NCBI GenBank assembly: GCA_029211065.1
Contig: JARGFK010000052.1
Location: 1 to 32,013 of the forward strand
Direction: 5' to 3'
Source: Desulfobacterales bacterium
Lineage (GTDB): Bacteria > Desulfobacterota > Desulfobacteria > Desulfobacterales > JARGFK01
Length of the DNA stretch: 32,013 nt
Shown here: positions 7,911 to 31,336 of the stretch, piece after piece
Layout of the letters: each line of letters opens with the position of its first letter
How positions within the stretch are numbered: the stretch's first letter is position 1
Made by a program: the position numbers and the translations under genes
The notes under the pieces: generated by a model
Database searches by the model: none
Seen by the model: the letters and a program-made list of their open reading frames with translations, nothing else
What the model was told of the DNA's origin: nothing

Positions 7911-7924
7911 GTCCTCTCCCATAT

Positions 7925-9577: not shown

Positions 9578-9590
9578 AAAGGGGGTCCCT

Positions 9591-9875: not shown

Positions 9876-9887
9876 CGGGGGGATACG

Positions 9888-10784: not shown

Positions 10785-10800
10785 GAAGGAGGATACGATC

Positions 10801-11700: not shown

Positions 11701-11710
11701 GTACAAGAAT

Positions 11711-11856: not shown

Positions 11857-11908
11857 GGATTCCGCCCCCTATTCTTCGATAAATACCCGTTAGAGGAGAT
11901 ACCTTATT

Positions 11909-14654: not shown

Positions 14655-14701
14655 ATAGCTGTCTGATAAAAACCCTAGCGACTAAACCAAGGAGTTTTCA
14701 C

Positions 14702-16147: not shown

Positions 16148-16180
16148 TTATTTCGTTTATAATGGTATGAGGTAATTCAT

Positions 16181-17326
16181 ATGAACATCGTCCAGTTAAA
16201 AAAATTATCCTATGACAAAGTCGCCAAATGCAACAAGTGCGGTTTCTGCCTGCCCAGCTGTCCGACCTATCTGGTCAAAAAGAAGGAAGCCTTCTCATCC
16301 CGGGGTCGCAATGCCATCACCCGTTTTGCCATCGAAAATAAACTGCAGTTGAACGAAGATACTGAAAACGCTATTTTTACCTGTCTGGGCTGCGGCGCCT
16401 GCGAGGCTGTTTGCCTGTCCAGCGTTAAAACCAAGGAGCTGATTTTCCGTGATCGGGAATGCCAGGTCGGCGAGGGCTTTTATCCTAAAATTACCGACCG
16501 CCTGGTCAAAACCCTGGAGGGTACGAAAAACATTTCCGACGATGATCAGGACGAACGCGCCGAGTGGCAGGAATTGATCAAGAACCTGCCCGAAGAAAAC
16601 TTTGAAAAAGAAAAGGCCGAAGTTCTTTTCTTTGTGGGCTGCGTCGCTTCCTTCTTTCCCATGGTGCAGAAAATCCCGGCCAATATGGCCACCATCATGA
16701 AAAAAGCAGGGATCGACTTCACCATCCTGGGCGGCGATGAATGGTGCTGCGGGTTTCCCCTTATCGGCGCCGGCATGCCTGAAAAGCTGGAGCTGATGAA
16801 AGCGCACAATCTGAAAAAAGTTGTCGAGGTGGGCGCCAAGAAGGTTGTCTTTACCTGCCCTTCCTGTTTTCATACCTGGAAACATCAATACGGCGCCGAC
16901 GTCGAACTGGTCCATGCCAGCCAGTTTATCAATCAACTGATTAAAGCCGGACGCATCAAGCTCAAAAAGGAAATCAAGATCCGCACGACCTATCACGATC
17001 CCTGCGACCTCGGCCGCAACACCGGCGTTTACGAGGAACCCCGCGAAGTTATCAAAGCGATTCCCGGGATCGACTTTGTTGAACTGCCGATGAACCGCAA
17101 GTTTTCGGTCTGCTGCGGCGGCGGCGGCAATGTGGAAATGACCGATGCGGATCTTTCCGCCCAGGTTGCCCAGATGAAGCTCGATGCGATCCAAAGCGTG
17201 GGCGCCGAAATGGTGGTTACCGCCTGCCAGCAGTGTGTGCGCACCATGGCCACGCGGGCCAAACGCACCAAAACCGAACTGGCGGTAAAAGATCTGACGG
17301 AACTGGTGGTCGAAGCCATGGAATAA
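16181..17326 (+). CDS. glcF: GlcF/HdrD-like iron-sulfur subunit with two 4Fe-4S motifs and two CCG domains
   Basis: A 381-residue protein. Two ferredoxin-type 4Fe-4S motifs occur near the N terminus: C17, C20, C23 and C27, then C68, C71, C74 and C78. Two CCG (cysteine-rich) domains follow, with EWCCGFPLIGAG and TCPSC in the first, and HDPCDLGR, CCGGGGNVEM and ACQQC in the second. This matches GlcF of glycolate oxidase and HdrD of heterodisulfide reductase. It should pass electrons from the GlcDE flavins onward, perhaps to the membrane cytochrome encoded at 18965. It closely resembles the CCG protein at 24275 (shared EWCCGFPL and CQQCVR stretches), so the two are likely paralogues. Confidence 0.87.
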   Translation: MNIVQLKKLSYDKVAKCNKCGFCLPSCPTYLVKKKEAFSSRGRNAITRFAIENKLQLNEDTENAIFTCLGCGACEAVCLSSVKTKELIFRDRECQVGEGFYPKITDRLVKTLEGTKNISDDDQDERAEWQELIKNLPEENFEKEKAEVLFFVGCVASFFPMVQKIPANMATIMKKAGIDFTILGGDEWCCGFPLIGAGMPEKLELMKAHNLKKVVEVGAKKVVFTCPSCFHTWKHQYGADVELVHASQFINQLIKAGRIKLKKEIKIRTTYHDPCDLGRNTGVYEEPREVIKAIPGIDFVELPMNRKFSVCCGGGGNVEMTDADLSAQVAQMKLDAIQSVGAEMVVTACQQCVRTMATRAKRTKTELAVKDLTELVVEAME

Positions 17327-17438: not shown

Positions 17439-17534
17439 TTTAAAGTATCTAACACATTCACTGGCATGATAGATTGCCACGCGCAGCAAGCTGCGGAGGA
17501 TGAAACCCAAAGATTATAATTCTGGAAGGTGATC

Positions 17535-18968
17535 ATGGATAAAATAATAGCAGATAGGATCCGCACGGCGGATGTTTCAAACTGGAAAAAAATCAAGGTC
17601 GAATTCGGCAAGGATTTTCTGGATATTGCCGTGCCGCCCAATTGCGTCACCCTGAACATGAAACGGATGCCCTGTTTAACCAGCTCTAAAGATGAAATTG
17701 CACATAGCCTGAACCACCCCATCGGATCGCCGACGTTGCCGGAAATCATTCGATCGAAAGCGAAACCGGCCGATGAACTGTCGGTTTGCATCACCGTTTC
17801 CGACATCACCCGGCCGGTCCCCTATAAAGGCGAAAACGGCGTCCTCTTACCCCTGGTGGAAATCATCGAAAAGGCCGGCGTGAAAAAAAGCAACATTGTC
17901 ATCGTCATCGGCAACGGCATGCACCGCCCCAGCACCCCTGAGGAGCGAATTTTCATGTACGGCCGGGAAATCGTGGACAATTACCGGATTGTGGATCATG
18001 ACTGCGAAGACTTATCCACCCAGGTGCTGGCGGCCCACACCAGCCGGGGAACCGATGTTTATCTGAACAAAATTTTCTTCGAATCCGACATCAAGATCGT
18101 CACCGGACTGGTGGAGAGCCATTTTATGACCGGCGTCTCCGGCGGCCGTAAAGCGGTCTGCCCTGCCCTGACGAACACCAAAACCATTCAAAAATTTCAT
18201 GGCGTTGAATTTCTGGAACACCCCAACGCCACCAACCTGGTCTTGGAAGGAAACCCGTGCCACGAAGAGGCCATTGAGGTGGCCCAAACCGTCGGGGTTG
18301 ATTTTATGATCAGCACCACCCTCGACAACACCCTGTGCATTACCGGCGTTTTCGGGGGCGATCTGATTAAAGCCCATCAGGCGGCTGTTGAAGCCATGAA
18401 GGAATTTGTTCAAATCCCCATCAAAGAACCGTACGACATTATCCTGACGCATGGCGGATATGTCGGCCGGGATCATTATCAGAGTGTGAAAAGCGCCGTG
18501 GGCGCCATCCCGGCCGTCAAGGAAAACGGCTTTATCGTCATGGTTGCCAACAATGTGGACAAGGAACCCATCGGCTCCAGAGAATACCAGACCCTGCTGC
18601 ATTTGTTTAAAATTCTGGGACCGGACGGCTACATCTCCATGCTGCAGCATCCGGACTGGGTCTTTACCAAAGACCAATGGGAGCCTGAGATGTGGGGAAA
18701 ACCCATCCGCAAGGTAGGCGCCGACGGTCTGATCTACTGCGCCACACAGATCCCCGAGAAGGACTACAAGATCATCCCGGGGATGAACGGATATCAATTC
18801 ATCGATCCGGCTACCGCGTTTCGTTCCGATAAGGAAAAAGCTGCCGCCATGTTCCAGAATGCCGTTATTTACGCCGCCACACACCCGAAGTTCAAAGGCC
18901 GCACACCGACCATGGCGTTTATCGACGAAGGGCCGTATGCGATTCCAATGGCGATGACAGGATTATGA
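17535..18968 (+). CDS. LarA-family nickel-pincer racemase/epimerase of a 2-hydroxyacid
   Basis: A 477-residue LarA-family (DUF2088-type) protein. All residues used for catalysis and cofactor attachment in Lactiplantibacillus LarA have counterparts at a steady offset: D90 and R93 in SDITRPVP, H130 in GMHRP, H196 in ESHFMTG, K206 in SGGRKAVCP (the lysine that carries the nickel-pincer nucleotide) and H222. It should therefore be active if LarB, LarC and LarE are made elsewhere. LarA homologues act on lactate, malate, phenyllactate or sugar acids. Here it could convert an L-2-hydroxyacid to the D form used by the GlcD-type enzymes. I use the ATG at 17535 after GGAAGG; an in-frame GTG six bases earlier overlaps that site. 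Its stop codon overlaps the next start (ATGA). Confidence 0.85.
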   Translation: MDKIIADRIRTADVSNWKKIKVEFGKDFLDIAVPPNCVTLNMKRMPCLTSSKDEIAHSLNHPIGSPTLPEIIRSKAKPADELSVCITVSDITRPVPYKGENGVLLPLVEIIEKAGVKKSNIVIVIGNGMHRPSTPEERIFMYGREIVDNYRIVDHDCEDLSTQVLAAHTSRGTDVYLNKIFFESDIKIVTGLVESHFMTGVSGGRKAVCPALTNTKTIQKFHGVEFLEHPNATNLVLEGNPCHEEAIEVAQTVGVDFMISTTLDNTLCITGVFGGDLIKAHQAAVEAMKEFVQIPIKEPYDIILTHGGYVGRDHYQSVKSAVGAIPAVKENGFIVMVANNVDKEPIGSREYQTLLHLFKILGPDGYISMLQHPDWVFTKDQWEPEMWGKPIRKVGADGLIYCATQIPEKDYKIIPGMNGYQFIDPATAFRSDKEKAAAMFQNAVIYAATHPKFKGRTPTMAFIDEGPYAIPMAMTGL

Positions 18969-20695
18969 AAAAGACACTACTTGCCTTGTTCATATTATTG
19001 CTGATGGCATTGCCGACGGTTACTGATGCCTCCTGGCTGATTGATTTTGAAAAATTTTCAGCCTCGGTCCATCGGGAGATTTCCTGCCAGGATTGTCATG
19101 AGAATATCGCCGCTGAAAAACTTCATCCCGATCCGCTCAAGGTCAACAGGCAACTGTCGGATTTTTTCACTGCCGACAACTGCATGAACTGCCATGACAC
19201 CGTTCAGGAAACACTGGACAAAGGCCGTCACGGCTCCCAAAAAGCCGATGACCCCAAAAAATATGAAAACTGCATTCAGTGCCATAACCCCCACTACCAG
19301 CTCCCCATCGGTCAGGAATCGGCTGAGACAGTTGCGGCCGATAAGGATTCCTTATCAAAAGCGGACCGTCTCTGTATGGATTGCCACGGTCTGAGCGAAA
19401 CCGACGAACCGCACAAAATAGCGGCTTTCTGTTTCCATTGTCATGCCCAGACCGGAACCCGGACCCAGGCGGTTGCCGCTCAAATAATTCCGTTGATAGA
19501 CCCCGGGTCCTATCAATCCGTGCCCCATGCCGAGGTCGCCTGCCTGGCCTGTCATCCCCGGGCCGCAGCCTTCAATCATGCCGATCAAGTACAGGGCGAC
19601 TGCCTGCAGTGCCACGTGCGCCATAATGAAAAGACGGCGCATGACGCTCACTCCCTGGTGAGTTGTCAGGCCTGCCATCTGAATAACGTTGAAGCGTCCC
19701 GTGACCCTCAATCCAAAAAAGTGCTATGGCATAAACAGCGCCTCCTGGGAACGCCGCTGACAATCCACGCCATGGAGCGTAATGATAACAAAGCGTCGTG
19801 CCGGCGCTGTCATATCAGTAAAAATGAAATCGGTGCGGCGGCGATGGTGCTGCCGGCCAAAAGTCTTTTGTGCATGCCCTGCCACGCAGCCACATTCTCT
19901 GCAGCTGATGCCGTCAGCATTGTTGCCCTGCTGATTTTTGCCGCCGGTCTGGCCCTGATGTTCTCGGTGGTGCTCACCGGAAGCATCCCCGACCGGACCC
20001 AGGCCGGTGTGATACAAAAAATATTTCACCTGATCATGGCTGCCGTCAAAGCCGTTTTTTCGCCCAAGATCTCTGTAATTTTAAAGGCCCTCTTCCTGGA
20101 TGTGCTGCTGCAAAGACGCCTTTATCATAAATCCGCCTGGCGCTGGCTGATCCACAGTTTTATTTTTCTATCTTTTGGTTTCCGGTTTTGCTGGGGCTTG
20201 ACGGCGCTGCTGGCCTCATCATGGAAACCGGAGTGGTCATCCCTCTGGTTTATGCTGGACAAAAACCATCCCTATACCGCCTTTCTGTTTGATCTTAGCG
20301 GCATCCTGATCCTGCTGGGAGTAGCCATGGCATTTATCCGGGGCCTTCAGCGGAAGACATCCCTGCCCCCGAATCTGCCCGGCCAGGACCGCTTGGCCTT
20401 AAGCCTGATCGGTGGAATTGTCATTGTCGGTTTTATCCTGGAAGCCTTGCGCATTGCCATGACAGGCTGGCCGGACGGTTCCGGATATGCGTTTGCAGGC
20501 TATGGCATCAGCCTGCTGTTTTCCGGCGCCGCCGGTATAACGGATTTTTACGGTTATATATGGTATCTGCACGCAATCGTTACCGGCGTGTTTGTCGCTT
20601 ATCTGCCGTTCAGCCGTCTCATTCACATGGTTATCGCACCGATTACCCTGGCGATGCGAACGTTATCGGAATCAGGACATACCCAAAAAACCTGA
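18965..20695 (+). CDS. Decaheme cytochrome c fused to NarI/HdrE-like membrane cytochrome b
   Basis: A 576-residue fusion. A signal peptide (about 1-22) is followed by ten CXXCH heme sites at residues 41, 73, 103, 137, 156, 193, 213, 234, 279 and 303. A membrane part with about five spans follows (316-338, 395-416, 438-460, 478-499, 531-556). Histidines 397, 536 and 554 lie in or near spans and could bind heme b, as in NarI and HdrE. The protein should link a periplasmic heme chain with the quinone pool and with a cytoplasmic iron-sulfur partner. Its start overlaps the LarA-like stop codon by four bases, so it is tightly coupled to the hydroxyacid operon. The probable job is moving electrons between GlcF/CCG proteins, menaquinone and periplasmic cytochromes; the direction is not known. 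Confidence 0.87.
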   Translation: MKKTLLALFILLLMALPTVTDASWLIDFEKFSASVHREISCQDCHENIAAEKLHPDPLKVNRQLSDFFTADNCMNCHDTVQETLDKGRHGSQKADDPKKYENCIQCHNPHYQLPIGQESAETVAADKDSLSKADRLCMDCHGLSETDEPHKIAAFCFHCHAQTGTRTQAVAAQIIPLIDPGSYQSVPHAEVACLACHPRAAAFNHADQVQGDCLQCHVRHNEKTAHDAHSLVSCQACHLNNVEASRDPQSKKVLWHKQRLLGTPLTIHAMERNDNKASCRRCHISKNEIGAAAMVLPAKSLLCMPCHAATFSAADAVSIVALLIFAAGLALMFSVVLTGSIPDRTQAGVIQKIFHLIMAAVKAVFSPKISVILKALFLDVLLQRRLYHKSAWRWLIHSFIFLSFGFRFCWGLTALLASSWKPEWSSLWFMLDKNHPYTAFLFDLSGILILLGVAMAFIRGLQRKTSLPPNLPGQDRLALSLIGGIVIVGFILEALRIAMTGWPDGSGYAFAGYGISLLFSGAAGITDFYGYIWYLHAIVTGVFVAYLPFSRLIHMVIAPITLAMRTLSESGHTQKT

Positions 20696-20730: not shown

Positions 20731-21135
20731 ATGCGCGATAATTCGGCCCACATTCGATTGGCTGACGGACAGGCCGAGGTTCAAATGGGCGGCAGATCCA
20801 TCCGGGTTTCCCGCCGGGACATCAATGATGAACCGTATCATTGCCCGGTTGGGCTGGTTGCGGGCGCACTGGGAAGCTGAATGGTCCTGACCATGGCTGC
20901 GGTTGCAGACAATAAAAAAATCAGTCTGGATGTTGTTGATGTCCGCATCAGCTATGAGATTCGTGCCGGCAGATCCTGGTCAACAAACTTCGACATCCGG
21001 ATTGATCTGGGAAAAAACCTGACCCCGCGTGAAAGAACCATTCTGTTTAATTCCGCCAGGGGATGCGAGGTTTCTAAAATGCTGAGTGGTGAAAACAAGT
21101 TTACATACGAACTGCTATCCGGCTCGCCCGGATAA
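20731..21135 (+). CDS. OsmC-family protein with selenocysteine at an in-frame TGA (Sec50)
   Basis: The two halves 20731-20880 and 20881-21135 are in one frame and are separated only by a TGA at 20878-20880. Read through, they give a 134-residue OsmC/Ohr-family protein of normal length. The TGA falls in GALGS-TGA-MVLTMAAVADNKK, exactly where the family has its peroxidatic cysteine (ALGaC..mtl..yA). The second conserved cysteine is present in SARGCEVSKML. A SECIS-like hairpin follows the TGA. This makes selenocysteine far more likely than a nonsense mutation. OsmC-like selenoproteins are known as a family. The protein should reduce organic peroxides or similar oxidants. AGGA about nine bases upstream supports the ATG at 20731. 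It lies 35 bases after the cytochrome gene. Confidence 0.85.
20894..20911 (+). promoter_or_regulatory. Candidate bacterial SECIS hairpin of the OsmC selenoprotein
   Basis: Stem TG..CA and CTGC/GCAG, with one G-A mismatch between the two parts, closes a GGTT apical loop at 20901-20904. The loop starts 21 bases after the TGA, inside the 16-37 base range used for bacterial SECIS searches, and it has the required G and a GGU like the E. coli fdhF element. An overlapping alternative hairpin (ATGGTC/GACCAT at 20881-20894) could compete. Confidence 0.65.
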
Positions 21136-21338: not shown

Positions 21339-22718
21339 ATGGACGCAAAATTAAAACAGGCGCTGATTGATATCGTAGGCGAACCCAATTATACCGACAG
21401 CCTGATTGATATGGTGTCGTACTCCTACGACGCTTCCGAACACCACCACCGGCCATTGTGCGGGGTATGGGCCACAACCGCCGAGCAGGTATCGGAAATT
21501 TTAAAACTGGCCAACCGTGAACGCATACCGGTCATCCCCCGGGGCGGCGGCACCGGCCTGGCCGGCATGGCGGTGCCGGCTAAGGGCGGGATCGTGCTGG
21601 ACCTGAACCACATGAACAATATCGTCAAAATCAGTATTGAAGACCGGCTGGCCATAGTACAGCCCGGGGTGGTATACGCCGCCCTTGAAAAAGCGCTGGC
21701 GCCATACGGGTTTATCTTCCCGCCTGATCCGGCCAGCGGCAAGGTCTCCACCCTGGGAGGAAATGTCGCCACGAATGCCGGCGGCGTCAAGGGCGCAAAA
21801 TATGGAACCACCCGGGATTATGTTCTGGGCCTGCAGATCGTTTTACCGGACGGACGCATCATGCGAACCGGGTCAAAAACCATGAAAAGCGTCTCCGGTT
21901 ATGACCTGACGAAGATTTTTGTGGGTTCCGAGGGAACCCTGGGCGTCGTTACCGAAATCACGCTCAAAATCAACCCCAAAACAACCGCCGCCAGTATGGC
22001 CATGGCGACCTTCGACGACCTGGTGGATGCCGGCCGGGCCGTCAGTGAAATCATGTACAGCGGGATTATCCCCAGCGTTCTGGAAATCATGGGGCGCGAC
22101 CTGATCATGGCCATCAACCAGAATACCGACCTGGATCTGCCCGAGGTGGACGCCATCCTTTTGGCGGAAACGGACGGCTATACCCAGGCCGAAACCGAAT
22201 ATCAGATTAATAAAGTAATCGGTGTTTTTAAAAAGAATCATGCCGGCCAGATCAAAGAGGCCAAAACCGCCCAAGAAGCCGGCAAGTTGTGGGCCGCCCG
22301 AAAATCGGCATACGGTGTTTTGGCCCGCATGAAGACCCATTTTGTTCTGGAAGATGTCACCGTTCCCATGAGCAAAATTGCCGACCTGCTCAAAGGCATT
22401 CAAGCGATCTCGAAAAAACATAATATCATGATCGCCTCTTACGGACATGCCGGCGACGGCAACCTGCACCCGCAAATCATGTTCGACGGTTATGATCCCC
22501 AGCAGGTTAAAGATCAGGAAGCCGCCAGTGCCGAAATTTTTGAACTGGCGCTCCGCCTGGGGGGAACCCTGACGGGTGAACACGGCATCGGTATGCAAAA
22601 AGCGCCTTATATGACGCTGGAACATGATGCGGCTGCAATGGATGTCATGCGTTCGATTAAAAAGATGTTGGATCCGAATAATATTCTCAACCCGGGCAAG
22701 ATGGCGCTGGAGGTGTAA
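21339..22718 (+). CDS. FAD-linked 2-hydroxyacid dehydrogenase, GlcD type (second copy)
   Basis: A 459-residue GlcD/D-lactate dehydrogenase-type flavoprotein. The PCMH FAD domain has PRGGGTGLAGMAVPAKGG and TLGGNVATNAGGVKGAKYG. The VSGYDLTKIFVGSEGTLGVVTE segment and the C-terminal ASYGHAGDGNLHPQ and LTGEHGIGMQK motifs are all present, so it looks fully functional. It differs from the first GlcD in lacking a GlcE partner; instead it is joined with no gap to a HdrD-like gene and then to a lipoyl carrier gene. The substrate could be glycolate, D-lactate, D-glycerate, D-malate or a similar acid; sequence alone does not decide. Confidence 0.88.
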   Translation: MDAKLKQALIDIVGEPNYTDSLIDMVSYSYDASEHHHRPLCGVWATTAEQVSEILKLANRERIPVIPRGGGTGLAGMAVPAKGGIVLDLNHMNNIVKISIEDRLAIVQPGVVYAALEKALAPYGFIFPPDPASGKVSTLGGNVATNAGGVKGAKYGTTRDYVLGLQIVLPDGRIMRTGSKTMKSVSGYDLTKIFVGSEGTLGVVTEITLKINPKTTAASMAMATFDDLVDAGRAVSEIMYSGIIPSVLEIMGRDLIMAINQNTDLDLPEVDAILLAETDGYTQAETEYQINKVIGVFKKNHAGQIKEAKTAQEAGKLWAARKSAYGVLARMKTHFVLEDVTVPMSKIADLLKGIQAISKKHNIMIASYGHAGDGNLHPQIMFDGYDPQQVKDQEAASAEIFELALRLGGTLTGEHGIGMQKAPYMTLEHDAAAMDVMRSIKKMLDPNNILNPGKMALEV

Positions 22719-23879
22719 ATGGAAGCGAAATACGATTTTTCACGAAAATATCGCGAACAGGTATTGAAATGTTCGCGCTGCGGATTCTGTCAGGCGGTCT
22801 GCCCTGTCTTTGGGGCTACCTTGCGGCCCGCCTATAATGCTCGCGGCAAAATGTTGGTTTTAAAAGAGGTCATGGACGGACAAATAGATCTCAATGATGA
22901 GCTGATTGAGACCCTGTTCCAGTGCACGACCTGTGCAAACTGCTATAAGAACTGCCCGTCGGGGGTCAACGTACCGGAAATCATCAAGCAGGTCCGAAAA
23001 GACATGGTCAACATCGGCTCCTGCCACCCGGCGTTTACCGGCATGAACGACGTTTTGAAAAAGCATACCAACATCTATGCCGAGGCAGCCTCCGCCGACT
23101 TTCAAAGAGCAAAAAATAAAAAAGCCCCGTATCTGTATTTTATCGGATGCGTGGGCGCCTTTCGCGAAGAAGACGCAACCGAATCCACCCTTAAACTGCT
23201 GGACCACCTGAACGTTGATTACACCCTGATCGATGAAGTCTGCTGCAGCGGGGTCCTGGAAGACGTCGGCTTCAGCATCAATGAAGACCATGTGGGAACC
23301 AATATGGACCGTATCCTGGCCACCGGCGCCGAGACGATCCTCACCGGATGCCCCTATTGCTACCGAACGTTCATCAACCGGCCGCAGTATAAACCCCTCC
23401 TGGATAAAGGAATCAAAATCCTGCATATCTCGCAGTTTCTGAAAGATTTTGATTTTGGGGTCAGCACCGACAAAAAAGTCACCTACCATGATCCTTGCGA
23501 TCTCGGTCGACACTGTGAAATTTATGATGACCCGCGGGAGACCATCAAAAAAATTGCGCCCGATTTTGTTGAAATGCCCCATAGCCGGGTGGACGCGCTC
23601 TGCTGCGGCGCCGGCGGCGGCGTGCGCGGGGCTTACGCCAAAAACTCCATCGCCATGGCCCGGCGCCGCCTGACCGAGGTTGATGAAATCGGCGCTGCAG
23701 TGGTTTTGACGGAATGCAATTCGTGTGTTCACAATCTTGTCAATGCCAAATTACGGAAACAACCATTCGAAATCTATACGACCACCCAGTTTATTATTGA
23801 ACTGCTGGAAGAAAACGGATCATTGAAAAACCAAAAGGAGGAACCGCATGGAAATTCAAGGCTACAATCTGCCGGATGA
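22719..23879 (+). CDS. HdrD/GlcF-like iron-sulfur protein with CCG domains
   Basis: A 386-residue protein whose ATG directly follows the stop codon of the second glcD. Two 4Fe-4S motifs are at C18, C21, C24, C28 and C69, C72, C75, C79. Two CCG domains follow, with FIGCVGAF, VCCSGV and GCPYC in the first, and HDPCDLGRH, LCCGAGGGVRGAY and ECNSC in the second. CCG domains in HdrB/HdrD bind non-cubane clusters that cleave disulfides. A lipoyl disulfide from the next gene's product would be a fitting substrate. The first CCG motif has CCS rather than CCG. It is more distant from the GlcF at 16181 than the protein at 24275 is. Its 3' end overlaps the lipoyl carrier gene by 32 bases. Confidence 0.85.
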   Translation: MEAKYDFSRKYREQVLKCSRCGFCQAVCPVFGATLRPAYNARGKMLVLKEVMDGQIDLNDELIETLFQCTTCANCYKNCPSGVNVPEIIKQVRKDMVNIGSCHPAFTGMNDVLKKHTNIYAEAASADFQRAKNKKAPYLYFIGCVGAFREEDATESTLKLLDHLNVDYTLIDEVCCSGVLEDVGFSINEDHVGTNMDRILATGAETILTGCPYCYRTFINRPQYKPLLDKGIKILHISQFLKDFDFGVSTDKKVTYHDPCDLGRHCEIYDDPRETIKKIAPDFVEMPHSRVDALCCGAGGGVRGAYAKNSIAMARRRLTEVDEIGAAVVLTECNSCVHNLVNAKLRKQPFEIYTTTQFIIELLEENGSLKNQKEEPHGNSRLQSAG

Positions 23880-24273
23880 GCTGTATTACGAACAGAATCA
23901 TTTTTGGGTCAAACAGGAAGGCGACCTGATCGTTATGGGCATGGACGATTTTGCCCAGAAAATGGCCGGTGAGATCGTCTACATCCAGCTGCCCAGTGAA
24001 GGCAAAGCGGTTAAGCAAGGTGCAAAATTCGCCAAGATGGAATCCGGCAAGTGGCTGGGCAAGGTCTATGCCCCGGTCAGCGGTGAACTGGCGGCGGTGA
24101 ACGAAGCGCTGGAAACCAATCCCGAACTCATCAATGAGGACTGCTACGGCAAGGGCTGGCTGTTTAAAATCAAACCGGAAGACCTGTCGGAACTGAATAA
24201 TCTGATTCACGGGAAAGACGCCGTTGAAAAATGGGTCCTGGCAGATATTGAAAAGTACGCCCAGGAGAAATAG
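23848..24273 (+). CDS. GcvH-like lipoyl carrier protein (LbpA type)
   Basis: A 141-residue protein of the GcvH fold. The lipoylation lysine is K68 in KMESGKWLGKVYAPVSGEL, aligned with the ESVKA motif of glycine cleavage H protein; the usual downstream VNEALE, NPELINED and GWLFKIKPED stretches are also present. A full AGGAGG ribosome site precedes the ATG, which lies inside the end of the upstream gene. No gcvT or gcvP gene is nearby. Instead it sits between two CCG/HdrD-like genes and upstream of a lipoate assembly set, like LbpA proteins of the sHdr sulfur-oxidation system. I infer a role as a swinging dithiol/disulfide electron carrier for the flanking dehydrogenase rather than in glycine cleavage. 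Confidence 0.88.
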   Translation: MEIQGYNLPDELYYEQNHFWVKQEGDLIVMGMDDFAQKMAGEIVYIQLPSEGKAVKQGAKFAKMESGKWLGKVYAPVSGELAAVNEALETNPELINEDCYGKGWLFKIKPEDLSELNNLIHGKDAVEKWVLADIEKYAQEK

Positions 24274-24274
24274 A

Positions 24275-25462
24275 ATGGCCAACCAGGACTACAGCATGCG
24301 GCAGTTGCTTGAAATGAAGGCCTGTACCAACTGTCAGGCGTGTGCCGACATATGCCCGGCAGTGACCGCCTCCAAAGAAGGCAAGCTATCGGCGGTATAC
24401 CGCATGAAAGGCCTGCAGCAGATTTTAAAAAGCAGGATCGGCCTCTTTCGTAAAATTTTCCGGTCGGCCGAACCGTCGCCCGAGGAATGGAACGATTTCA
24501 GCGACACGGTTTTTCGCTGCACGCTCTGCGGCAACTGCCAGGAAGTCTGCCCGGTGGGGATTCATTTAAAAGACCTCTGGATTTCACTGCGCCAGGATCT
24601 GGTGCATTCCGATCATTTCCCCAAGAAAATTGACATGATCCGCAGCAACCTGGCCGAAAGCCACAATGTCTTTGCCGAAGACAATGAAGAACGCGCCGAC
24701 TGGGTGGAGGACATGGACGACACCCCCGCAGACGGTTATATTCGCGCCAAAGCCGACGTGGTTTATTTCACGGGCTGTGTCGCGGCCTATTTTCCGCTGG
24801 CCCAGAACATCCCCGTGGCCCTGGCGGAAATCCTGGAAGCCGGCGGCGTCAATTTCACCCTGCTGGGTGAAGACGAATGGTGCTGCGGATTTCCCCTGCT
24901 GGGCGCCGGTTTAAAGGAACTGCACCGGGAATTCGTGGATCACAATCTTGCGGTTGTGCGCGAAAGGGGTGCGAAAACCGTGATCTTCGCCTGCCCATCC
25001 TGCTATCAGATGTGGCGGGAGTTTTACCCCCCTGAATTCGAAATCGCCCATGCCTCCCAGTTCCTGATCAAACTGCTCAAGAGCGGCGCCATACCGCTGA
25101 AGGAGCTCGCATTAACGGTCACGTATCATGACCCCTGCGACCTGGGACGGGGGGCCCGGGTTTTTGACGAACCCCGCGACGTTATCCGCAGCCTTCCCGG
25201 CGTTAAATTTGTGGAACTGGAGCACAACCGCGAGAATTGCCAGTGCTGCGGCGGCGGCGGCAATCTTGAAATGATGGACGCAACCCTTTCCGGAGATATC
25301 GCCAAAAATAAAATTGAAGAGGCCTTGAAAACCGGCGCCCAGGCGATCGTCACTTCGTGTCAGCAATGCGTCCGCGCCATGACGACCTATGTCAGAAGAA
25401 ATAAAGTCCCGCTGCAGGTCATGGACATTACGCAGTTGATTCATCGAGCGTTAAAGCGCTGA
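24275..25462 (+). CDS. GlcF/HdrD-like iron-sulfur protein with CCG domains, lipoyl-linked module
   Basis: A 395-residue protein. The start is the ATG at 24275, with AGGAG about seven bases upstream and one base past the carrier gene's stop codon; an earlier in-frame start would overlap the carrier gene. 4Fe-4S motifs lie at C17, C20, C23, C27 and C82, C85, C88, C92. The CCG domains contain TGCVAAYF, EWCCGFPLLGAG, ACPSC, HDPCDLGRG, CCGGGGNLEM and SCQQC. It is clearly a paralogue of the GlcF at 16181. Together with the protein at 22719 it brackets the lipoyl carrier, so the module has two CCG proteins for one flavoprotein and one lipoyl protein, an arrangement reminiscent of the paired HdrB subunits in sHdr. 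Confidence 0.86.
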   Translation: MANQDYSMRQLLEMKACTNCQACADICPAVTASKEGKLSAVYRMKGLQQILKSRIGLFRKIFRSAEPSPEEWNDFSDTVFRCTLCGNCQEVCPVGIHLKDLWISLRQDLVHSDHFPKKIDMIRSNLAESHNVFAEDNEERADWVEDMDDTPADGYIRAKADVVYFTGCVAAYFPLAQNIPVALAEILEAGGVNFTLLGEDEWCCGFPLLGAGLKELHREFVDHNLAVVRERGAKTVIFACPSCYQMWREFYPPEFEIAHASQFLIKLLKSGAIPLKELALTVTYHDPCDLGRGARVFDEPRDVIRSLPGVKFVELEHNRENCQCCGGGGNLEMMDATLSGDIAKNKIEEALKTGAQAIVTSCQQCVRAMTTYVRRNKVPLQVMDITQLIHRALKR

Positions 25463-25478
25463 AGAAAAGACAGGGTCC

Positions 25479-25563
25479 GTTGATTGTCGTCCGTTGTCCG
25501 TTGCCAAATACATGAGCCCTTGATTCGGTTGCATTCGACAACTGACAACGGACTACGGACAAC
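25479..25563. repeat. 25-base imperfect inverted repeat in spacer
   Basis: The arm at 25479-25503 and the arm at 25539-25563 are imperfect reverse complements. Each arm consists of repeated GTCCGTTG-like words (left) or CAACGGAC-like words (right). It lies in the 178-base gap before the lipoate ligase gene; the rest of the gap shows only that gene's AAGGAG site. Confidence 0.75.
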
Positions 25564-25640
25564 AAGCATTTCAACATGACGTCTGATTTCCGGCCACCCA
25601 ACGCTTCAATGTTTTTAAATCGATTTAAGGAGTATGACGG

Positions 25641-27200
25641 ATGACAACCTGGCGCCTGCTGGATACCCCGCCCATGACGGCCGCCGAAAACATGGCGCTG
25701 GATGACACCCTTGTGGAGTTGAAAGGCCTGGGCCAGACACCCAACACCCTTCACTTTCTGCAGTTTTCACCCCGGGCGGTCCTGACCGGATTTCATCAGT
25801 CTGTTGAGGAAGAGATCCGTGTGGATTATTGCCGGCGTGAAGGCATCCATATCAATCGTCGCATCACCGGCGGCGGCGCAATTTTTTTTGACGAAAACCA
25901 GCTCGGATGGGAAGTCATTTGCGACAAGTCTTTTTTCAACCTGACCATTCCCAACGCCAAACTTTTCCGAACCCTGTGCAATCCGGTGGTTACCGCCCTG
26001 GGGCGTTTGGGCCTCCAATCCAGTTTTCGGCCCCGCAACGATATTGAGATCAACGGCCGCAAAATCTCAGGCACCGGCGGCACCGAGTCGGACGGCGCTT
26101 TCCTGTTTCAGGGAACCATGCTGGTGGATTTTGATGTGGACACCATGCTGAAGAGCCTCAAAATTCCCGTTGAAAAATTGAAAGCCAAGGAAATCGATTC
26201 GGTCAAGGAACGGGTCACCTGCCTGAACTGGGAGCTCGGCTATACCCCCGGCCTTGATAAAATTAAATCCGCTATTCTGGCAGGCTTCGCAGCGGAGCTG
26301 GGGGTCGAATTCAGGCCGGGTGGGCTGACCCCGGAAGAAGAAGATCATTTCAACAAAAAGGTGAATTACTACCGATCGTCCGAATGGATTGATTTCGTAA
26401 AACCCAAATTTAAACGCAGCGACGTCATTCAGGCGGCCTACAAAGCCGAAGCCGGCATGGTTCGCTTCACCATCATCGTCGGACTTCCCCAAAAAAAAAT
26501 AAAAAATATTTTTATCACCGGCGATTTTCTCTCTTTCCCGACCCGGGCCCTGTTTGACCTGGAATCCCGCCTGAGAGGGCTGCGACTGGACCGGGCGCTT
26601 CTGCACGACAGGATCAAACAGTTTTTTGATGAAGGTCGCATCGTCATTCCCGGAATGGGTTACCGGGATTTTATCAAGCCTTTGGATCAAGCCATTGAGA
26701 AAGTTGAAATAACCAAGTTCAATATCCCCCTGGAATTCTGCAATCAGATATCGGTTTGCAACGCCTCCTTTGAAGAAATCGTGGCAAAAAGGCCTTCGGT
26801 TCTGCTGCTCCCTTACTGCGCCAAGGATAAAGAATGTGATTTGCGCTATGAAAAAGGGTGCCGCGCCTGCGGTGACTGCTCCACCGGTACGGCATCAGAC
26901 ATGGGCAGGGCGAAAAAAATGAAAATCGTCAACATTACCAGTTTTGAAGATTTGATGGCAGAATTGCACAAAATGAAAAGCGCGGGCGTGTCTGCTTTTG
27001 TCGGCTGCTGTTGCCGTCCATTTTTTAATAAACACGCGGATGACTTTGAACGCGCAGGGGTTCCGGGTATTTTGCTCGAAATCGACAGCACGACCTGCTA
27101 CGAACTGGACCAGGCCAAACAGGCCTACGCCGGAACGTTTGAAAGTCAGACCCATTTGAATTTAGACCTGTTGAATACCGTTCTGAATGTTGCTGGATGA
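25641..27200 (+). CDS. Lipoate--protein ligase fusion: LplA catalytic domain, LplB-like domain and DUF116
   Basis: A 519-residue three-part protein. Residues about 1-205 form the LplA/BPL catalytic domain, with the RRITGGGAIFF motif and the nucleotide-activating lysine K141 in RNDIEINGRKISGTGG. Residues about 225-345 resemble the LplB/accessory C-terminal domain (AGMVRFTIIVGL, ITGDFLSFP). Residues about 365-519 are a DUF116 domain rich in cysteine: C393, C399, C407, C410, C413, C456-C458 and C486. This matches the sLpl(AB) ligases that load octanoate or lipoate onto proteins in the LipS1/LipS2 pathway; here all parts are fused. The cysteines may bind an iron-sulfur cluster. The nearby GcvH-like protein at 23848 is the obvious acceptor. 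The exact role of the DUF116 part is unknown to me. Confidence 0.83.
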   Translation: MTTWRLLDTPPMTAAENMALDDTLVELKGLGQTPNTLHFLQFSPRAVLTGFHQSVEEEIRVDYCRREGIHINRRITGGGAIFFDENQLGWEVICDKSFFNLTIPNAKLFRTLCNPVVTALGRLGLQSSFRPRNDIEINGRKISGTGGTESDGAFLFQGTMLVDFDVDTMLKSLKIPVEKLKAKEIDSVKERVTCLNWELGYTPGLDKIKSAILAGFAAELGVEFRPGGLTPEEEDHFNKKVNYYRSSEWIDFVKPKFKRSDVIQAAYKAEAGMVRFTIIVGLPQKKIKNIFITGDFLSFPTRALFDLESRLRGLRLDRALLHDRIKQFFDEGRIVIPGMGYRDFIKPLDQAIEKVEITKFNIPLEFCNQISVCNASFEEIVAKRPSVLLLPYCAKDKECDLRYEKGCRACGDCSTGTASDMGRAKKMKIVNITSFEDLMAELHKMKSAGVSAFVGCCCRPFFNKHADDFERAGVPGILLEIDSTTCYELDQAKQAYAGTFESQTHLNLDLLNTVLNVAG

Positions 27201-27201
27201 A

Positions 27202-27289
27202 ATTTAGGTCGAAGGTATAAAGGCTGAAGGCTGTAAGGTTTCAATTGTCCTTCCTTCAACCTAATCCACCTTCAGTCTTCAGCCTAAAT
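27202..27289. repeat. Imperfect inverted repeat in spacer before lipT
   Basis: The arm at 27202-27238 (ATTTAGG followed by GAAGG and GGCTGAAGG words) pairs with the arm at 27253-27289, which ends CTTCAGCCTAAAT. A further GAAGGTTGAAGGTG copy lies at 27301-27313, next to the lipT-like start. Confidence 0.7.
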
Positions 27290-27323
27290 ACACGAAATCG
27301 AAGGTTGAAGGTGAATTGTAAAA

Positions 27324-28406
27324 ATGAAGTCAAGTGACATGCCATCATCAGCTATCTGTGACATCCTTGTGGTGGGCGCCGGCCCGGCCGGTGCCTCCGC
27401 CGCTGCTGCAGCCGCCCGCCCGAATTTGCAGGTACTGATGATTGAGCGCCGTGCGGTGGTGGGGCTGCCGGTGCAGTGCGCCGAATACATCCCTGCCCTG
27501 CTGGTGGGCGAACTGAATATCGGCCGGAAATATCTGGTTCAACCGGTTCGGGGAATGAAAACATTCCTTGCCGGCCGGGAAGTAAAAGAAACGCTGTCCC
27601 CGGGATTCATCATTAATCGTGAACAATTCGATCAGACGCTTGTCCAGGCGGCATGCGACAGCGGCGCCCACCTCATGCTGAACACAAAAGCAGTATCCCA
27701 AAATGGAGATGACGTCATTATCAAACCCAAAGGCCGCCCCCCTTTAAAAATTAAAGCGAAAATCATTATCGGCGCCGACGGTCCTCTGTCAACCGTTGCC
27801 GAATGGATCGGCGCCGCCCACCATGATCTGATCCGCGCCATTCAGATTCGGGTCCCCCTGAAACACCGGCTTGAATTTACCGAAGTCTATTTCAGCAAAG
27901 ATTTCTATGGCGGCTACGCCTGGCTGTTCCCCAAAGGCGATCAGGCCAATCTGGGACTGGGCATTAAGAAAAAAGGCCGCCGGCCGCCGCCCCTGGGACG
28001 ACTTCTGGAATATTTTACATCCCAGTGCAGCCGTGCAGGAAAAATAGTGGCAAACCCTTCCGGGCGCATAACCGGCTGGATCCCGGCCGGACCGGTTTCA
28101 AAAATCGTTCACGGCAATGTTCTGCTGGCTGGGGATGCCGCTGGCCATACCCACCCCATCACAGGCGCCGGTATATTCCCGGCGGTAGCCGCCGGCCGGA
28201 TGGCCGGCACCTGGGCGGCCCGGGCAATTCAAGAAAAGAATCTGCAGGTGTTGTCCGGCTATGAATCTGAATATCGGAATCTCTTCGGAGACTCGATGCA
28301 GCGGGCCGTCAGCCGGCGGCAGCAAATGGAATCCCGCTGGGACGATCTCGACAACATCCTGAAAAACTGCTGGGTCGCATTCAAGGAATACTATGCGGGA
28401 ACTTAG
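27324..28406 (+). CDS. lipT: LipT-like FAD-dependent oxidoreductase (geranylgeranyl reductase family)
   Basis: A 360-residue flavoprotein of the geranylgeranyl-reductase/PHBH superfamily. The FAD dinucleotide motif is DILVVGAGPAGASAA (about 13-27), a GADGP motif lies near residue 153, and a second FAD motif LLAGDAAGHTHPITGAG lies at about 269-285. The family name alone would suggest lipid reduction, but the gene sits between the sLpl ligase and a radical SAM gene that it overlaps by 14 bases. LipT, a flavoprotein of this family, is a regular companion of the sLpl(AB)/LipS1/LipS2 lipoate pathway and is thought to supply electrons. The function is assigned by context. Confidence 0.75.
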   Translation: MKSSDMPSSAICDILVVGAGPAGASAAAAAARPNLQVLMIERRAVVGLPVQCAEYIPALLVGELNIGRKYLVQPVRGMKTFLAGREVKETLSPGFIINREQFDQTLVQAACDSGAHLMLNTKAVSQNGDDVIIKPKGRPPLKIKAKIIIGADGPLSTVAEWIGAAHHDLIRAIQIRVPLKHRLEFTEVYFSKDFYGGYAWLFPKGDQANLGLGIKKKGRRPPPLGRLLEYFTSQCSRAGKIVANPSGRITGWIPAGPVSKIVHGNVLLAGDAAGHTHPITGAGIFPAVAAGRMAGTWAARAIQEKNLQVLSGYESEYRNLFGDSMQRAVSRRQQMESRWDDLDNILKNCWVAFKEYYAGT

Positions 28407-29349
28407 CGGCATATTAAAGAGAGCGCGGGATTTGTCCTGGAAATACCTGGGCCGCGAAATCATATTTTACCTGCCCGGAATGTTCATATCCAACAATCAG
28501 ACCGGCAGATATCCGGCCATCTCCATTACCGGAAGCCAATGCGCGCTTAGTTGCGACCATTGCCGATCTAAAATATTGGAACCCATGATCCCGGCCGTTT
28601 CCCCCGAGCAATTGCTGGAACGATGTCTTCAGCTCGAAAAAAACGGAACGGTCGGCGTCTTAATCAGCGGCGGCTGCGATCTAAACGGCCGCTTGCCGTG
28701 GGACGCTTTTATTCCCGCAGTCAAACAAATTAAATCCCGGACAGGCCTCTTCATTTCGATCCACAGCGGTCTCATTGATTTTCAAACCGCCCTGGCGTTG
28801 AAAGAAGCCGGGGTTGATCAAGCCCTGATCGATGTTGTCGGCGATGATCAAACCCTTAAAGATATTTACCATGTAGACTTCGGCGTTTCACGCATTTATG
28901 ATTCCCTGGAAGCGCTTCATCGCGCCGGCCTGGCCATCATACCCCACATTGTCTGCGGGCTGCACTACGGCAAGATCAAAGGGGAAAAGAAAGCGGCGGA
29001 AATGATATCACAGTTTCGGGTCGAACAGGTTGTTGTCGTTTCTTTGATGAGAATTCCCGGCACACCCCTTTGGCACACGAATCCTTTAGATGCCGAAACG
29101 GTTGCCGAAATCATAGCTGAAACCCGCATTAAAATGCCGCAGGTTAAGATCAGTCTGGGCTGCGCCCGCCAGAGAGGGAACACCGACCTGGAAATCCTGG
29201 CAATCGATGCCGGTGTCAATCGCATGGCCCTGCCGTCCGAAGAAGCCGTGGCCCACGCCAAAAATTACAACCTGAAGATCCATTATCAACCCACCTGTTG
29301 TTCGGTAACCAGGCGGGTGGAGGAAATAGATGACTGGATGTTTGTATGA
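28393..29349 (+). CDS. Radical SAM protein, lipoyl synthase component (LipS1/LipS2 type)
   Basis: A 318-residue radical SAM protein. The SAM-cluster motif CxxxCxxC is C50, C54 and C57 in SQCALSCDHC. An SGGCDLNGR loop near residues 95-103 matches the SAM-binding GGE-like motif. A further cysteine pair occurs near the C terminus (PTCCSVTRR) and a lone one in LGCARQRG, possible ligands for an auxiliary cluster. It overlaps the lipT-like gene by 14 bases. In the sLpl(AB) pathway two different radical SAM proteins together insert the two sulfur atoms of lipoate. I do not assign the number 1 or 2. Confidence 0.8.
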   Translation: MRELSGILKRARDLSWKYLGREIIFYLPGMFISNNQTGRYPAISITGSQCALSCDHCRSKILEPMIPAVSPEQLLERCLQLEKNGTVGVLISGGCDLNGRLPWDAFIPAVKQIKSRTGLFISIHSGLIDFQTALALKEAGVDQALIDVVGDDQTLKDIYHVDFGVSRIYDSLEALHRAGLAIIPHIVCGLHYGKIKGEKKAAEMISQFRVEQVVVVSLMRIPGTPLWHTNPLDAETVAEIIAETRIKMPQVKISLGCARQRGNTDLEILAIDAGVNRMALPSEEAVAHAKNYNLKIHYQPTCCSVTRRVEEIDDWMFV

Positions 29350-29352
29350 GTA

Positions 29353-29382
29353 GGGTTCACGGTTCAAGGTTCAAGGTTGAAG
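29353..29382 (+). repeat. Short GGTTCA-type repeat, left flank of the four-helix-bundle gene
   Basis: The stretch GGTTCACGGTTCAAGG followed by two more GGTT-AAGG words lies immediately before the four-helix gene. It is the exact reverse complement of the unit in the tandem array at 29924-30187, so the gene is flanked by inverted copies. Confidence 0.75.
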
Positions 29383-29386
29383 AACA

Positions 29387-29770
29387 ATGAAAATTGACCG
29401 ATTTGAAGATATTGAAGCTTGGCGACTGGCACGTGAATTGACACGCAAAGTGTATGCCCTCACAAAGAAACCTAAATTCGCCAAGGACTATGGTCTGAAA
29501 AGCCAGATACAAGAAGCGTCCGGCTCATCCATGCACAATATTGCCGAAGGCTTCGATGCCGAAACGAATGCCGAGTTTATTCGATTTTTGCGATATTCAA
29601 AACGATCGTGCACGGAGGTTCAAAGCGAACTCTATGTCGCCTTGGATGAAAACTATATATCGCTCAAAGAATTCAAAGATGTCTATGAGCAGGCCAGGAA
29701 AACCCGCGCTGCGGTTCGCGGATTTATCAACTATCTCAAAAATTACGAGGAGCGCAATAAAGAAAAATAA
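29387..29770 (+). CDS. Four-helix-bundle protein (S23 / 23S rRNA intervening-sequence protein family)
   Basis: A 127-residue protein of the S23/IVP four-helix-bundle family. It shows the usual FEDIEAWRLARELTRKVYALT opening, a YGLKSQIQEASGSSMHNIAEGF centre, the ETNAEFIRFLRYSKRSCTEVQSEL helix and a final helix to the C terminus. Such proteins occur inside 23S rRNA insertions or scattered in genomes, often as apparent mobile passengers; their function is unknown. Here it interrupts the pair of radical SAM genes and is surrounded by inverted GGTTCA-type repeats, which suggests a recent insertion. The ribosome site overlaps the left repeat (GGTTGAAGAAC). It is not needed for lipoate synthesis as far as can be seen. 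Confidence 0.85.
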   Translation: MKIDRFEDIEAWRLARELTRKVYALTKKPKFAKDYGLKSQIQEASGSSMHNIAEGFDAETNAEFIRFLRYSKRSCTEVQSELYVALDENYISLKEFKDVYEQARKTRAAVRGFINYLKNYEERNKEK

Positions 29771-29775
29771 ACAAT

Positions 29776-29815
29776 GTTCACGGTTCAGGGGTTCTGGGTT
29801 CACGGTTAAGAAGGT
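29776..29815 (+). repeat. GGTTCA-type repeat cluster right after the four-helix-bundle gene
   Basis: Two GTTCACGGTT copies and a GGGGTTCTGGG word lie directly past the stop codon, in the same orientation as the left-flank repeat and opposite to the following tandem array. The bases from 29816 to about 29900 show no gene or clear signal. Confidence 0.65.
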
Positions 29816-29923
29816 TAAGAACAAGAAAATTAAAAGGTTGATTCTGGGAAGATAGCGAGAAAATTCATAAACTCTAAACGCTGATCCGTTAACTCTTGAA
29901 TCCCGAACCCTCGAGCCCTTAAA

Positions 29924-30187
29924 CCGTGAACCTTTGAACCGTGAACCTTTGAACCGTGAACCTTTGAACCGTAAACCCTTGAACCGTGAACCCTTGAACC
30001 GTGAACCCTTGAACCGTAAACCCTTGAACCGTGAACCCTTGAACCGTAAACCCTTGAACCGTGAACCCTTGAACCGTGAACCCTTGAACCGTGAACCCTT
30101 GAACCGTGAACCCTTGAACCGTGAACCTTTGAACCGTGAACCCTTGAACCGTGAACCCTTGAACCGTAAACCCTTGAACCGTGAACT
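29924..30187. repeat. 15-bp tandem repeat array, about 17 units
   Basis: The unit is GTGAACCCTTGAACC with two main variants: GTAAA for GTGAA, and CCTTT for CCCTT. Seventeen full units lie in perfect 15-base register from about 29926 to 30180. Because 15 is a multiple of three, all frames stay open: NREPL/NRKPL on plus and FTVQG on minus. I see no start signal or flanking domain that would make either a real protein. It ends 22 bases before the next gene, and could affect its expression. Confidence 0.95.
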
Positions 30188-30208
30188 TAATTATCGGAGT
30201 AAAAGTAA

Positions 30209-31336
30209 ATGACCACGACACAATCTAAAGAAAGCCCTGAATACATGCGCATGAGTCTGGCCGCAGCCATGACACTGGATTTTAAACAGGGACTTTTCTA
30301 TCGCAATGCAAAGCTGTACTGCATTAATCTATTGTTAACATACGATGAAGGCTGCCGGGCGCGATGCGCCTATTGCGGTCTTTCCCAAAAACGACCCGGT
30401 TCCTATGACGGCAAGAGCTTCATCCGCGTCACATGGCCGACCTATCGTCTGGAAGAAATCATTGCGCGCATTTCTGCAAGGCGGGATCGCGTCAAGCGAA
30501 TATGCATCTCCATGGTCACCCATAAACGCGCGGTCAAAGACACGAAAACCGTGTGCAGCCGGTTGCGGTCCCATTTAGACGTTCCGGTTTCCCTGCTGAT
30601 ATCCCCCACCATCCTGAAACCGGAAGATCTAACGGATTTTAAGGCTGCCGGGGCCGATAAAATCGGTGTCGCCATTGACCTGGCGACACCGGAGCTGTTT
30701 GACAAATTCCGGGGAACCGGTGTTGGGGGTCCCCATAAATGGGAGATCTACTGGCAATGCCTGTCGGATTCCATACGGATATTCGGCAAAGGAAACGCCG
30801 GACCCCATCTGATGGTGGGAATGGGTGAAACCGAAAAAGAGATGTCTGCGGTAATACAGCGTGCCAAGGATATGGGCGGCAACACCCACCTGTTTTCATT
30901 CTTTCCGGAAGAATCGTCCGCCCTGGCTTTGGAAGGACTTCTGCCGCCGCCCATGGATCAGTATCGCCGCATCCAGATAGCGCGCTATATCATTGACACA
31001 GAGGCAAGGCACATTACGGATTTTTCTTTCTCACCGGATGGGCAAATAGAGTCTTTCGGGCTACCGACCGGCGAAATTGACGCCATCATCGATTCGGGCC
31101 GTCCCTTTGAAACAAGCGGCTGCACCGGAAATGACGGTCAGGTGGCCTGCAACCGCCCTTTCGGCAATTCCAGGCCCGGTCCGAATATCCGCAATTTTCC
31201 CTTTAAACCCGATCGGACGGACATTCGACGGATACGTAACCAGATGAACCCCGAAAGTAAATCGGAGATACCGGCCACCAGTATCAAGCGGCGAAACCGT
31301 AAAACGGAAAGCACAGCACCGACCAGTGGGATTTAG
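30209..31336 (+). CDS. Radical SAM protein, second lipoyl synthase component (LipS1/LipS2 type)
   Basis: A 375-residue radical SAM protein. The SAM-cluster motif is C49, C53 and C56 in GCRARCAYC. A biotin-synthase-like TIM barrel follows, with the LMVGMGETEKEM turn and the FSFFPEESS strand. C305 and C314 in SGCTGNDGQVACNRPFGNS recall the cysteine pattern of sulfur-inserting or biotin-synthase-like enzymes and may bind an auxiliary cluster. The last 35 or so residues are polar and basic and look unstructured. GGAG ten bases upstream supports the ATG. Its partner is the radical SAM protein at 28393; the four-helix gene and the tandem array lie between them. The operon appears to end here, as a regulatory region follows at once. 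Confidence 0.8.
   Translation: MTTTQSKESPEYMRMSLAAAMTLDFKQGLFYRNAKLYCINLLLTYDEGCRARCAYCGLSQKRPGSYDGKSFIRVTWPTYRLEEIIARISARRDRVKRICISMVTHKRAVKDTKTVCSRLRSHLDVPVSLLISPTILKPEDLTDFKAAGADKIGVAIDLATPELFDKFRGTGVGGPHKWEIYWQCLSDSIRIFGKGNAGPHLMVGMGETEKEMSAVIQRAKDMGGNTHLFSFFPEESSALALEGLLPPPMDQYRRIQIARYIIDTEARHITDFSFSPDGQIESFGLPTGEIDAIIDSGRPFETSGCTGNDGQVACNRPFGNSRPGPNIRNFPFKPDRTDIRRIRNQMNPESKSEIPATSIKRRNRKTESTAPTSGI

Follow-up and report, generated by a model that had tools for sequence, protein, structure and literature searches.

A conserved cytochrome, lipoyl protein and HdrD-like protein as a proposed membrane redox module with exchangeable dehydrogenases in Desulfobacterales

The DNA stretch analysed here (the window) is the 32,013-nucleotide contig JARGFK010000052.1 of a Desulfobacterales bacterium, and it encodes a GcvH-like lipoyl protein among a multihaem membrane cytochrome (CytC), two CCG proteins (CCG1 and CCG2) and a 2-hydroxyacid dehydrogenase subunit of the GlcD family. 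We use GcvH* and GlcD* for the GcvH-like protein and the GlcD of the window and for their clades. Our main finding is that CytC, GcvH* and the HdrD-like CCG2 are the constant core of a gene unit whose dehydrogenases change from one relative to another. We consider it somewhat probable that this core works as a membrane redox module, in which a protein-bound lipoyl group would be the mobile carrier between soluble dehydrogenases and a complex resembling HdrDE/DsrMK. In that case lipoate would be the carrier in a further form of Hdr-type thiol/disulfide electron transfer. The open-access literature, where absence is not proof, yielded no description of the module or of lipoate as a respiratory electron carrier; GlcD and Desulfo- genera are unmentioned in the searched text of the eLife 2018 and PLoS Biol 2023 lipoate papers, and the HdrD copies listed for the D. 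autotrophicum genome are given no lipoyl partner in its paper.

The original prediction for this DNA described a hydroxyacid dehydrogenase module built around a lipoyl carrier, with GlcD, CCG1, the GcvH-like protein, CCG2, an LplA-LplB-DUF116 ligase, a LipT-like flavoprotein, LipS1 and LipS2 in this order. Open reading frame and profile searches confirmed the order, with all these genes intact on the + strand; GlcD, CCG1, GcvH* and CCG2 are spaced by 0 bp, a 32-bp overlap and 1 bp, and look translationally coupled. An alignment of GcvH* scanned against 84,980 species genomes gave 80 loci from many families, mostly in metagenome-assembled genomes of Desulfobacterales, the isolates Desulfocicer vacuolatum DSM 3385 and strain NaphS2 included. 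Since the loci were selected on the lipoyl protein alone, its neighbouring genes constitute an independent observation, and their association with GcvH* is far beyond chance. CCG2 lies directly 3' of GcvH* in 60 of the 70 loci with enough sequence, so the adjacency seen in the window is conserved in relatives, and CytC lies at most 4 kb away in 48/54 loci. The constant core is thus formed by CytC, GcvH* and CCG2, the last two of which had already been placed in the unit, while CytC lay outside the region assigned to it. GlcD* and CCG1 were also considered as core genes and rejected, being missing from about half of the loci.

The variable genes are the donors, located either upstream of CytC or in the gap between it and GcvH*. 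Among 54 loci, GlcD* with CCG1 was found in 21, an E1-E2-E3 set in 19 and GlcDEF in 2, with no donor recognised in 12; GlcD*/CCG1 and E1-E2-E3 never co-occur at one locus. E1, E2 and E3 were assigned by Pfam and correspond to a thiamine pyrophosphate-dependent 2-oxoacid/acetoin-type dehydrogenase complex, accompanied at several loci by an NAD-kinase-like gene that resembles AcoX of acetoin dehydrogenase operons. In L121 and L130, GlcDEF directly precedes LarA-CytC-GcvH*-CCG2, without GlcD*/CCG1. A module dedicated to hydroxyacids therefore fits the GlcD*-type loci and is too narrow for the E1-E2-E3 ones; in this sense the original interpretation is partly supported, and we widen it to a core with exchangeable donors. 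Mapped on the GcvH* tree, donors switch type at least 2 times, against 15.7 for shuffled labels, and so few switches indicate that donors are exchanged but rarely and that the pairing with a donor is more recent than the carrier and core. LarA is present in 5 of 16 GlcD*-type loci and in 0 of 17 E1-E3 loci, a linkage that is suggestive only.

Two other layouts were observed. L076 (positions 1-9015) carries GlcD-GlcF-like genes and genes resembling subunits of 2-oxoacid:ferredoxin oxidoreductase upstream of CytC-GcvH*, possibly a third donor type. At L068 (7790-11431), which is also the locus of L122, GcvH* and LplA come directly after the E1 alpha and beta genes; E2, E3, CCG2 and CytC are absent from the vicinity, and GcvH* may take there the lipoyl role of E2 or work in trans.

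GcvH* shares with the H protein of the glycine cleavage system (GCS) the fold family and the conserved lipoyl-lysine position of the PF01597 domain, and it scores above generic gcvH cut-offs, as would be expected of an ordinary H protein whose unrelated neighbours stand there by accident. We hold that explanation to be extremely improbable. In the host genome the canonical GcvH gene immediately adjoins the GcvP pair on another contig (C61), so the GCS has its own H protein and the carrier of the window does not appear to serve it. In a maximum-likelihood tree, from which the GcvH-like matches on C85 and C164 (longer proteins in other contexts) were left out, all GcvH* fall in a single clade (support 100/99), separate from canonical GcvH (100/100). 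The lipoyl motif is ESGKW[LV]G in GcvH* versus ESVKA in canonical GcvH, and GcvH* differs also by a C-terminal extension and by having no GcvP/T neighbours. GcvP was not found in any of the 80 loci, whereas seven of seven canonical GcvH loci used as a control have gcvP and none has CytC, CCG1 or CCG2. A glycine-cleavage role was rejected in view of the GcvH on C61, the separate clade and motif and the lack of GcvP, and the conserved non-GCS neighbourhood argues likewise against accident. Within a sample of 194 genomes of the order, GcvH* occurs in 22, with 58-76% identity (self 100%) and at least 200 bits, and the next GcvH-like proteins reach at most 48% identity over full length and at most 142 bits. 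K68 is invariant across the 24-row GcvH* alignment. C99 is conserved in 80/81 sequences; as a unique signature of GcvH* it is weak, because DCY is also present in two canonical GcvH rows.

Beyond this clade the theme of the module is repeated with other pieces. A sample of 395 genomes of the phylum contains 26 with a strong GcvH* (at least 200 bits) and others with intermediate proteins of 146-182 bits. Six of these deeper relatives (L181, L182, L184, L185, L193 and L200) have the order HdrC-HdrB-GcvH-GlcD-GlcF, and in L188 and L189 a distant CytC-CCG2-GcvH adjoins HdrB/HdrC. In L046 (7190-19901), L047 and L195, GlcD-GlcF-GcvH-GlcD-GlcF is followed by LplAB-LipT-LipS1-HdrC-HdrB-LipS2, and the lipoyl protein has a QSAKWIGE-type motif. 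Nearly all deeper relatives keep a lysine-tryptophan lipoyl motif, [EQ][ST]xKW.

K68 of GcvH* probably carries the lipoyl group, which the adjacent ligase and LipS proteins would attach. The LipS1 and LipS2 matches fall under the NCBIfam equivalog cut-offs but are the best matches over nearly full length and adjoin LplAB/LipT, and the LipT-like gene is grouped with LplAB, LipS1 and LipS2 in relatives. LipA lies close to the GCS genes on C61, which together with LipS1/LipS2 beside GcvH* indicates that two lipoylation routes coexist in the host genome. The lipoate assembly line that was predicted to belong to the module does stand alongside it in the window, though the LipS1/LipS2 line recurs in only 10 of the 42 loci with enough flank; other loci carry a LipB-LipA-type fusion, a stand-alone LplA or both.

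A GcvH-like lipoyl protein, Hdr-type CCG clusters and LplA/LipS1/LipS2/LipT-type genes are also features of the sHdr-LbpA sulfur oxidation system (Dahl and co-workers), and linked candidate maturation genes of that kind (sLpl/LipS1/LipS2) do occur in the window cluster. The partners of the present module are instead carbon dehydrogenases and a membrane cytochrome, and its host carries dsrA and is therefore presumably a sulfate reducer. LbpA is defined by two strictly conserved cysteines, N- and C-terminal (PMC6067878); judged against this published definition, GcvH* conserves C99 alone and the pair is absent. HdrA, HdrB and HdrC were not found in the window cluster, nor was any HdrB/HdrC match in the 80 loci. 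Membership of the sHdr system was rejected on these grounds, as had been anticipated from the missing HdrA. LbpA has been proposed to bring bound sulfur to Hdr-like proteins (PMC6067878), and the lipoyl arm of GcvH* might similarly hold a covalent intermediate, sulfur as in LbpA or an acyl group as in E2, that CCG2/CytC oxidises; the E1 subunits adjoining GcvH* without E2 at L068/L122 would agree with this. We regard such group or sulfur transfer as improbable, given that the LbpA cysteines are absent, that the window cluster has no recognisable gene for rhodanese, TusA or DsrE and that the oxidation of 2-hydroxyacids needs no carrier-bound group.

Both CCG motifs retain every cysteine in 65-66 of 66 CCG2 and 30-31 of 31 CCG1 sequences. 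The AlphaFold model of CCG2 (pLDDT, predicted local distance difference test, 86.9) matches the folds of EtfD (Z 28.1) and HdrB (Z about 22). The C-terminal domain of CytC has the five transmembrane (TM) helices and conserved histidines of a NarI-type domain. The Pfam matches of CytC are cytochrome c7/c3 and Nitrate_red_gam (PF02665, 25.8 bits), the protein has 5-6 TM helices, H397, H536 and H554 are invariant, and CxxCH motifs number 10 in the window, 11 in most relatives and 6 in a short subgroup. In a model of moderate quality (mean pLDDT 70) the membrane domain resembles that of EtfD (Z 14.1) and NarI (Z 9.0-9.4). Mycobacterial EtfD, the ETF (electron-transfer flavoprotein):menaquinone oxidoreductase, is thus the best structural match of both proteins, and its non-catalytic clusters connect ETF to menaquinone (PMC13083937). 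By analogy, electrons might pass along a wire from GlcD* through CCG1, CCG2 and CytC to menaquinone, with GcvH* in an allosteric or scaffolding role and not a redox one. We find this rather unlikely. The EtfD clusters are reported to be non-catalytic because Thr539 stands where Hdr proteins have a cysteine and His583 is a ligand of the second cluster (PMC13083937); profile alignment pairs CC of CCG2 with CT of EtfD, and CPSC with CPHC, that is, Cys at Thr539 and Ser at His583. CCG2 therefore lacks both substitutions and, with all ten Hdr-type cysteines retained, has an Hdr-type and not an EtfD-type ligand set. Moreover, K68 is invariant, a ligase is often adjacent, and GcvH* is retained where GlcD*/CCG1 are absent. 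The module further differs from EtfD in being split in two proteins, in having no ETF and in its extra multihaem domain. GlcD* and CCG1 belong to the same family as GlcDEF, Dld-II and LctD, and the nearest solved structures of GlcD* are glycolate oxidase (9qgz, 301 bits), LctD (7qh2, 268 bits) and D-lactate dehydrogenase; in contrast to these enzymes, GlcD* and CCG1 have genes for a lipoyl carrier and another CCG protein beside them, and no EtfAB is present.

A selenocysteine (Sec) OsmC-like gene, split by ordinary open reading frame calling, stands between CytC and GlcD* and belongs to the module. An in-frame TGA occupies its catalytic-cysteine position (ALGS-TGA), and the readthrough translation matches PF02566 with 37.5 bits. 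The same TGA recurs in six other distinct loci (L043, L059, L062, L080, L146 and L151), where the gene is placed between CCG2 and the ligase, and is a Cys codon in L144. The host genome has a tRNA-Sec (77 bits). Most Sec-OsmC loci show a short hairpin 3' of the TGA, with stem changes between relatives, and the few sequences available make it a suggestive candidate only for a bacterial selenocysteine insertion sequence (bSECIS). Lipoylated proteins serve as reductants of Ohr proteins, which belong to the OsmC superfamily (PMC5962072). A dihydrolipoyl donor beside Sec-OsmC is in line with this, and Sec-OsmC is probably a further thiol/peroxide client of that group.

In the mechanism that we favour, GcvH*, lipoylated on K68 by the adjacent ligase and LipS proteins, would be a small mobile two-electron carrier, fed here by GlcD*-CCG1 and perhaps GlcDEF, and in relatives by E1-E2-E3. 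CCG2, with its two Hdr-type non-cubane cluster sites, would open or close the lipoyl disulfide and exchange electrons with CytC at its NarI-like haem-b domain, which would communicate with menaquinone and/or the periplasmic 10-11-haem domain. Electrons would run preferentially from the dehydrogenase to dihydrolipoyl-GcvH*, CCG2, CytC and finally menaquinone and/or periplasmic cytochromes. What the sequences offer in support are the parts, their conserved adjacency, the donor exchange, the complete cluster motifs and the invariant K68; from these we infer complex formation, electron flow and the action of CCG2 on the lipoyl disulfide/dithiol. The arrangement would parallel HdrDE and DsrMK(JOP), where an HdrD-like CCG protein also pairs with a NarI-type haem-b subunit on a cytoplasmic thiol/disulfide substrate. 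The proposed substrate would be lipoyl on a GcvH-like protein instead of CoM-S-S-CoB or DsrC, the membrane subunit bears 10-11 c-haems, and the dehydrogenases are encoded in cis. We see about even chances for the broader idea that Desulfobacterota use protein-bound lipoyl generally as a cytoplasmic carrier of respiratory electrons, comparable to DsrC or CoM-S-S-CoB. It would take electrons from interchangeable 2-hydroxyacid/2-oxoacid dehydrogenases and pass them, via an HdrD-like protein, to a transmembrane cytochrome with 11 haems, and the selenocysteine OsmC peroxidase would be a side client.

Several points weigh against this proposal. No recognisable CCG2 match was found in 5 of the 80 loci, some loci have no CytC nearby, and in L057/L097 and L073/L123 GcvH* adjoins sulfatase genes, without CCG2 or CytC. 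Both CCG motifs are likewise present in GlcF-type proteins for which no lipoyl partner is known, so the motifs permit but do not prove disulfide chemistry at CCG2. The last point is energetic. Hydroxyacid potentials are about -190 mV for lactate, -166 mV for malate and -92 mV for glycolate. That of lipoamide is about -290 mV (PMC6067878). Hydroxyacids being more positive, the step from GlcD* to lipoyl is uphill at standard state; it could be feasible at a very low level of the product or through coupling to another reaction. The oxaloacetate-decarboxylase-, malate-CoA-ligase- and malyl-CoA-lyase-like genes of the window, together with LarA, would suit a malate- or glycolate-linked pathway with low product. 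From an E1-E2-E3 donor through the lipoyl carrier to CytC the flow is downhill.

These potentials agree with the main rival of our proposal, reverse electron transport, where hydroxyacid electrons enter at quinone level via GlcD*/GlcDEF and are lifted by the membrane potential to about -290 mV, the menaquinol/cytochrome pool reducing lipoyl-GcvH* and E3 or Sec-OsmC using the dithiol. E3 is indeed encoded beside CytC in most E1-E2-E3 loci, and Sec-OsmC is a possible consumer. The natural flow in the E1-E2-E3 loci is outward from dihydrolipoyl, however, and there is no sign of an energy-coupling subunit; we judge reverse transport unlikely, while giving it some weight.

Lipoate has established roles in a few complexes of carbon metabolism and in sHdr sulfur oxidation. 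If the proposed lipoyl-based module is true, respiratory electron transport would be added to its roles in dozens of genomes, a substrate would be found for part of the numerous CCG/HdrD orphans in sulfate reducers, and carbon-derived electrons would have a route to multihaem cytochromes. The question of what the extra HdrD-like proteins of sulfate reducers do becomes directly testable.

Table 1. Features of the gene cluster, in window coordinates.
Feature	Position	Strand	Evidence
GlcD-GlcE-GlcF-like second 2-hydroxyacid dehydrogenase, upstream	13266..17326	+	profile matches
LarA-family 2-hydroxyacid racemase	17529..18968	+	PF09861; LarA (264 bits) and LarAH6 malate racemase (256 bits), neither reaching its cut-off; 4-bp overlap with CytC
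CytC	18965..20695	+	N-terminal signal/helix, 10 CxxCH haem-c sites, NarI-like domain with 5-6 TM helices
Selenocysteine OsmC-like protein	20731..21135	+	UGA is codon 50 (20878-20880)
Putative bSECIS hairpin	20897..20908	+	CUGC-GGUU-GCAG, about 17 nt 3' of UGA
GlcD*, FAD-linked 2-hydroxyacid dehydrogenase subunit, optional donor	21339..22718	+	PF01565 + PF02913
CCG1, partner of GlcD*	22719..23879	+	Fer4_8, two CCG domains; two 4Fe-4S motifs, two complete CCG motifs
GcvH*, 141 aa	23848..24273	+	PF01597, 140 bits; predicted lipoyl-lysine K68 (codon 24049-24051) in ESGKWLGK
CCG2, HdrD-like	24275..25462	+	ATG at 24275; two 4Fe-4S motifs, CX34CCX35CxxC and CX35CCX36CxxC
LplA-LplB-DUF116 lipoate/octanoate ligase fusion	25641..27200	+	PF21948, LplB, PF01976
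LipT-like flavoprotein, geranylgeranyl-reductase-type	27324..28406	+	TIGR02032, above cut-off
LipS1-type radical SAM protein	28393..29349	+	NF053742, 218 bits (cut-off 230)
LipS2-type radical SAM protein	30209..31336	+	NF053743, 224 bits (cut-off 270)

Between LipS1 and LipS2, positions 29387-30186 hold a gene for a 23S rRNA-intervening-sequence (IVP) protein and an 18-copy 15-bp tandem repeat, CCCTTGAACCGTGAA, apparently an insertion that splits the lipoate cassette. This gene and repeat were absent from the original prediction, as were CytC and the Sec-OsmC gene. Upstream of the cluster, positions 1285-13195 encode lookalikes of TctC/TctB-type uptake proteins, a class V aminotransferase, oxaloacetate decarboxylase (OadB and a biotin-domain subunit), a malate-CoA ligase pair, an HpcH/HpaI protein (malyl-CoA lyase-like) and an iron alcohol dehydrogenase, possibly a pathway of glycolate/malate oxidation with substrate-level phosphorylation. 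Similar ligase and lyase genes adjoin the module in L207, and ligase genes do so in L201 and L213.

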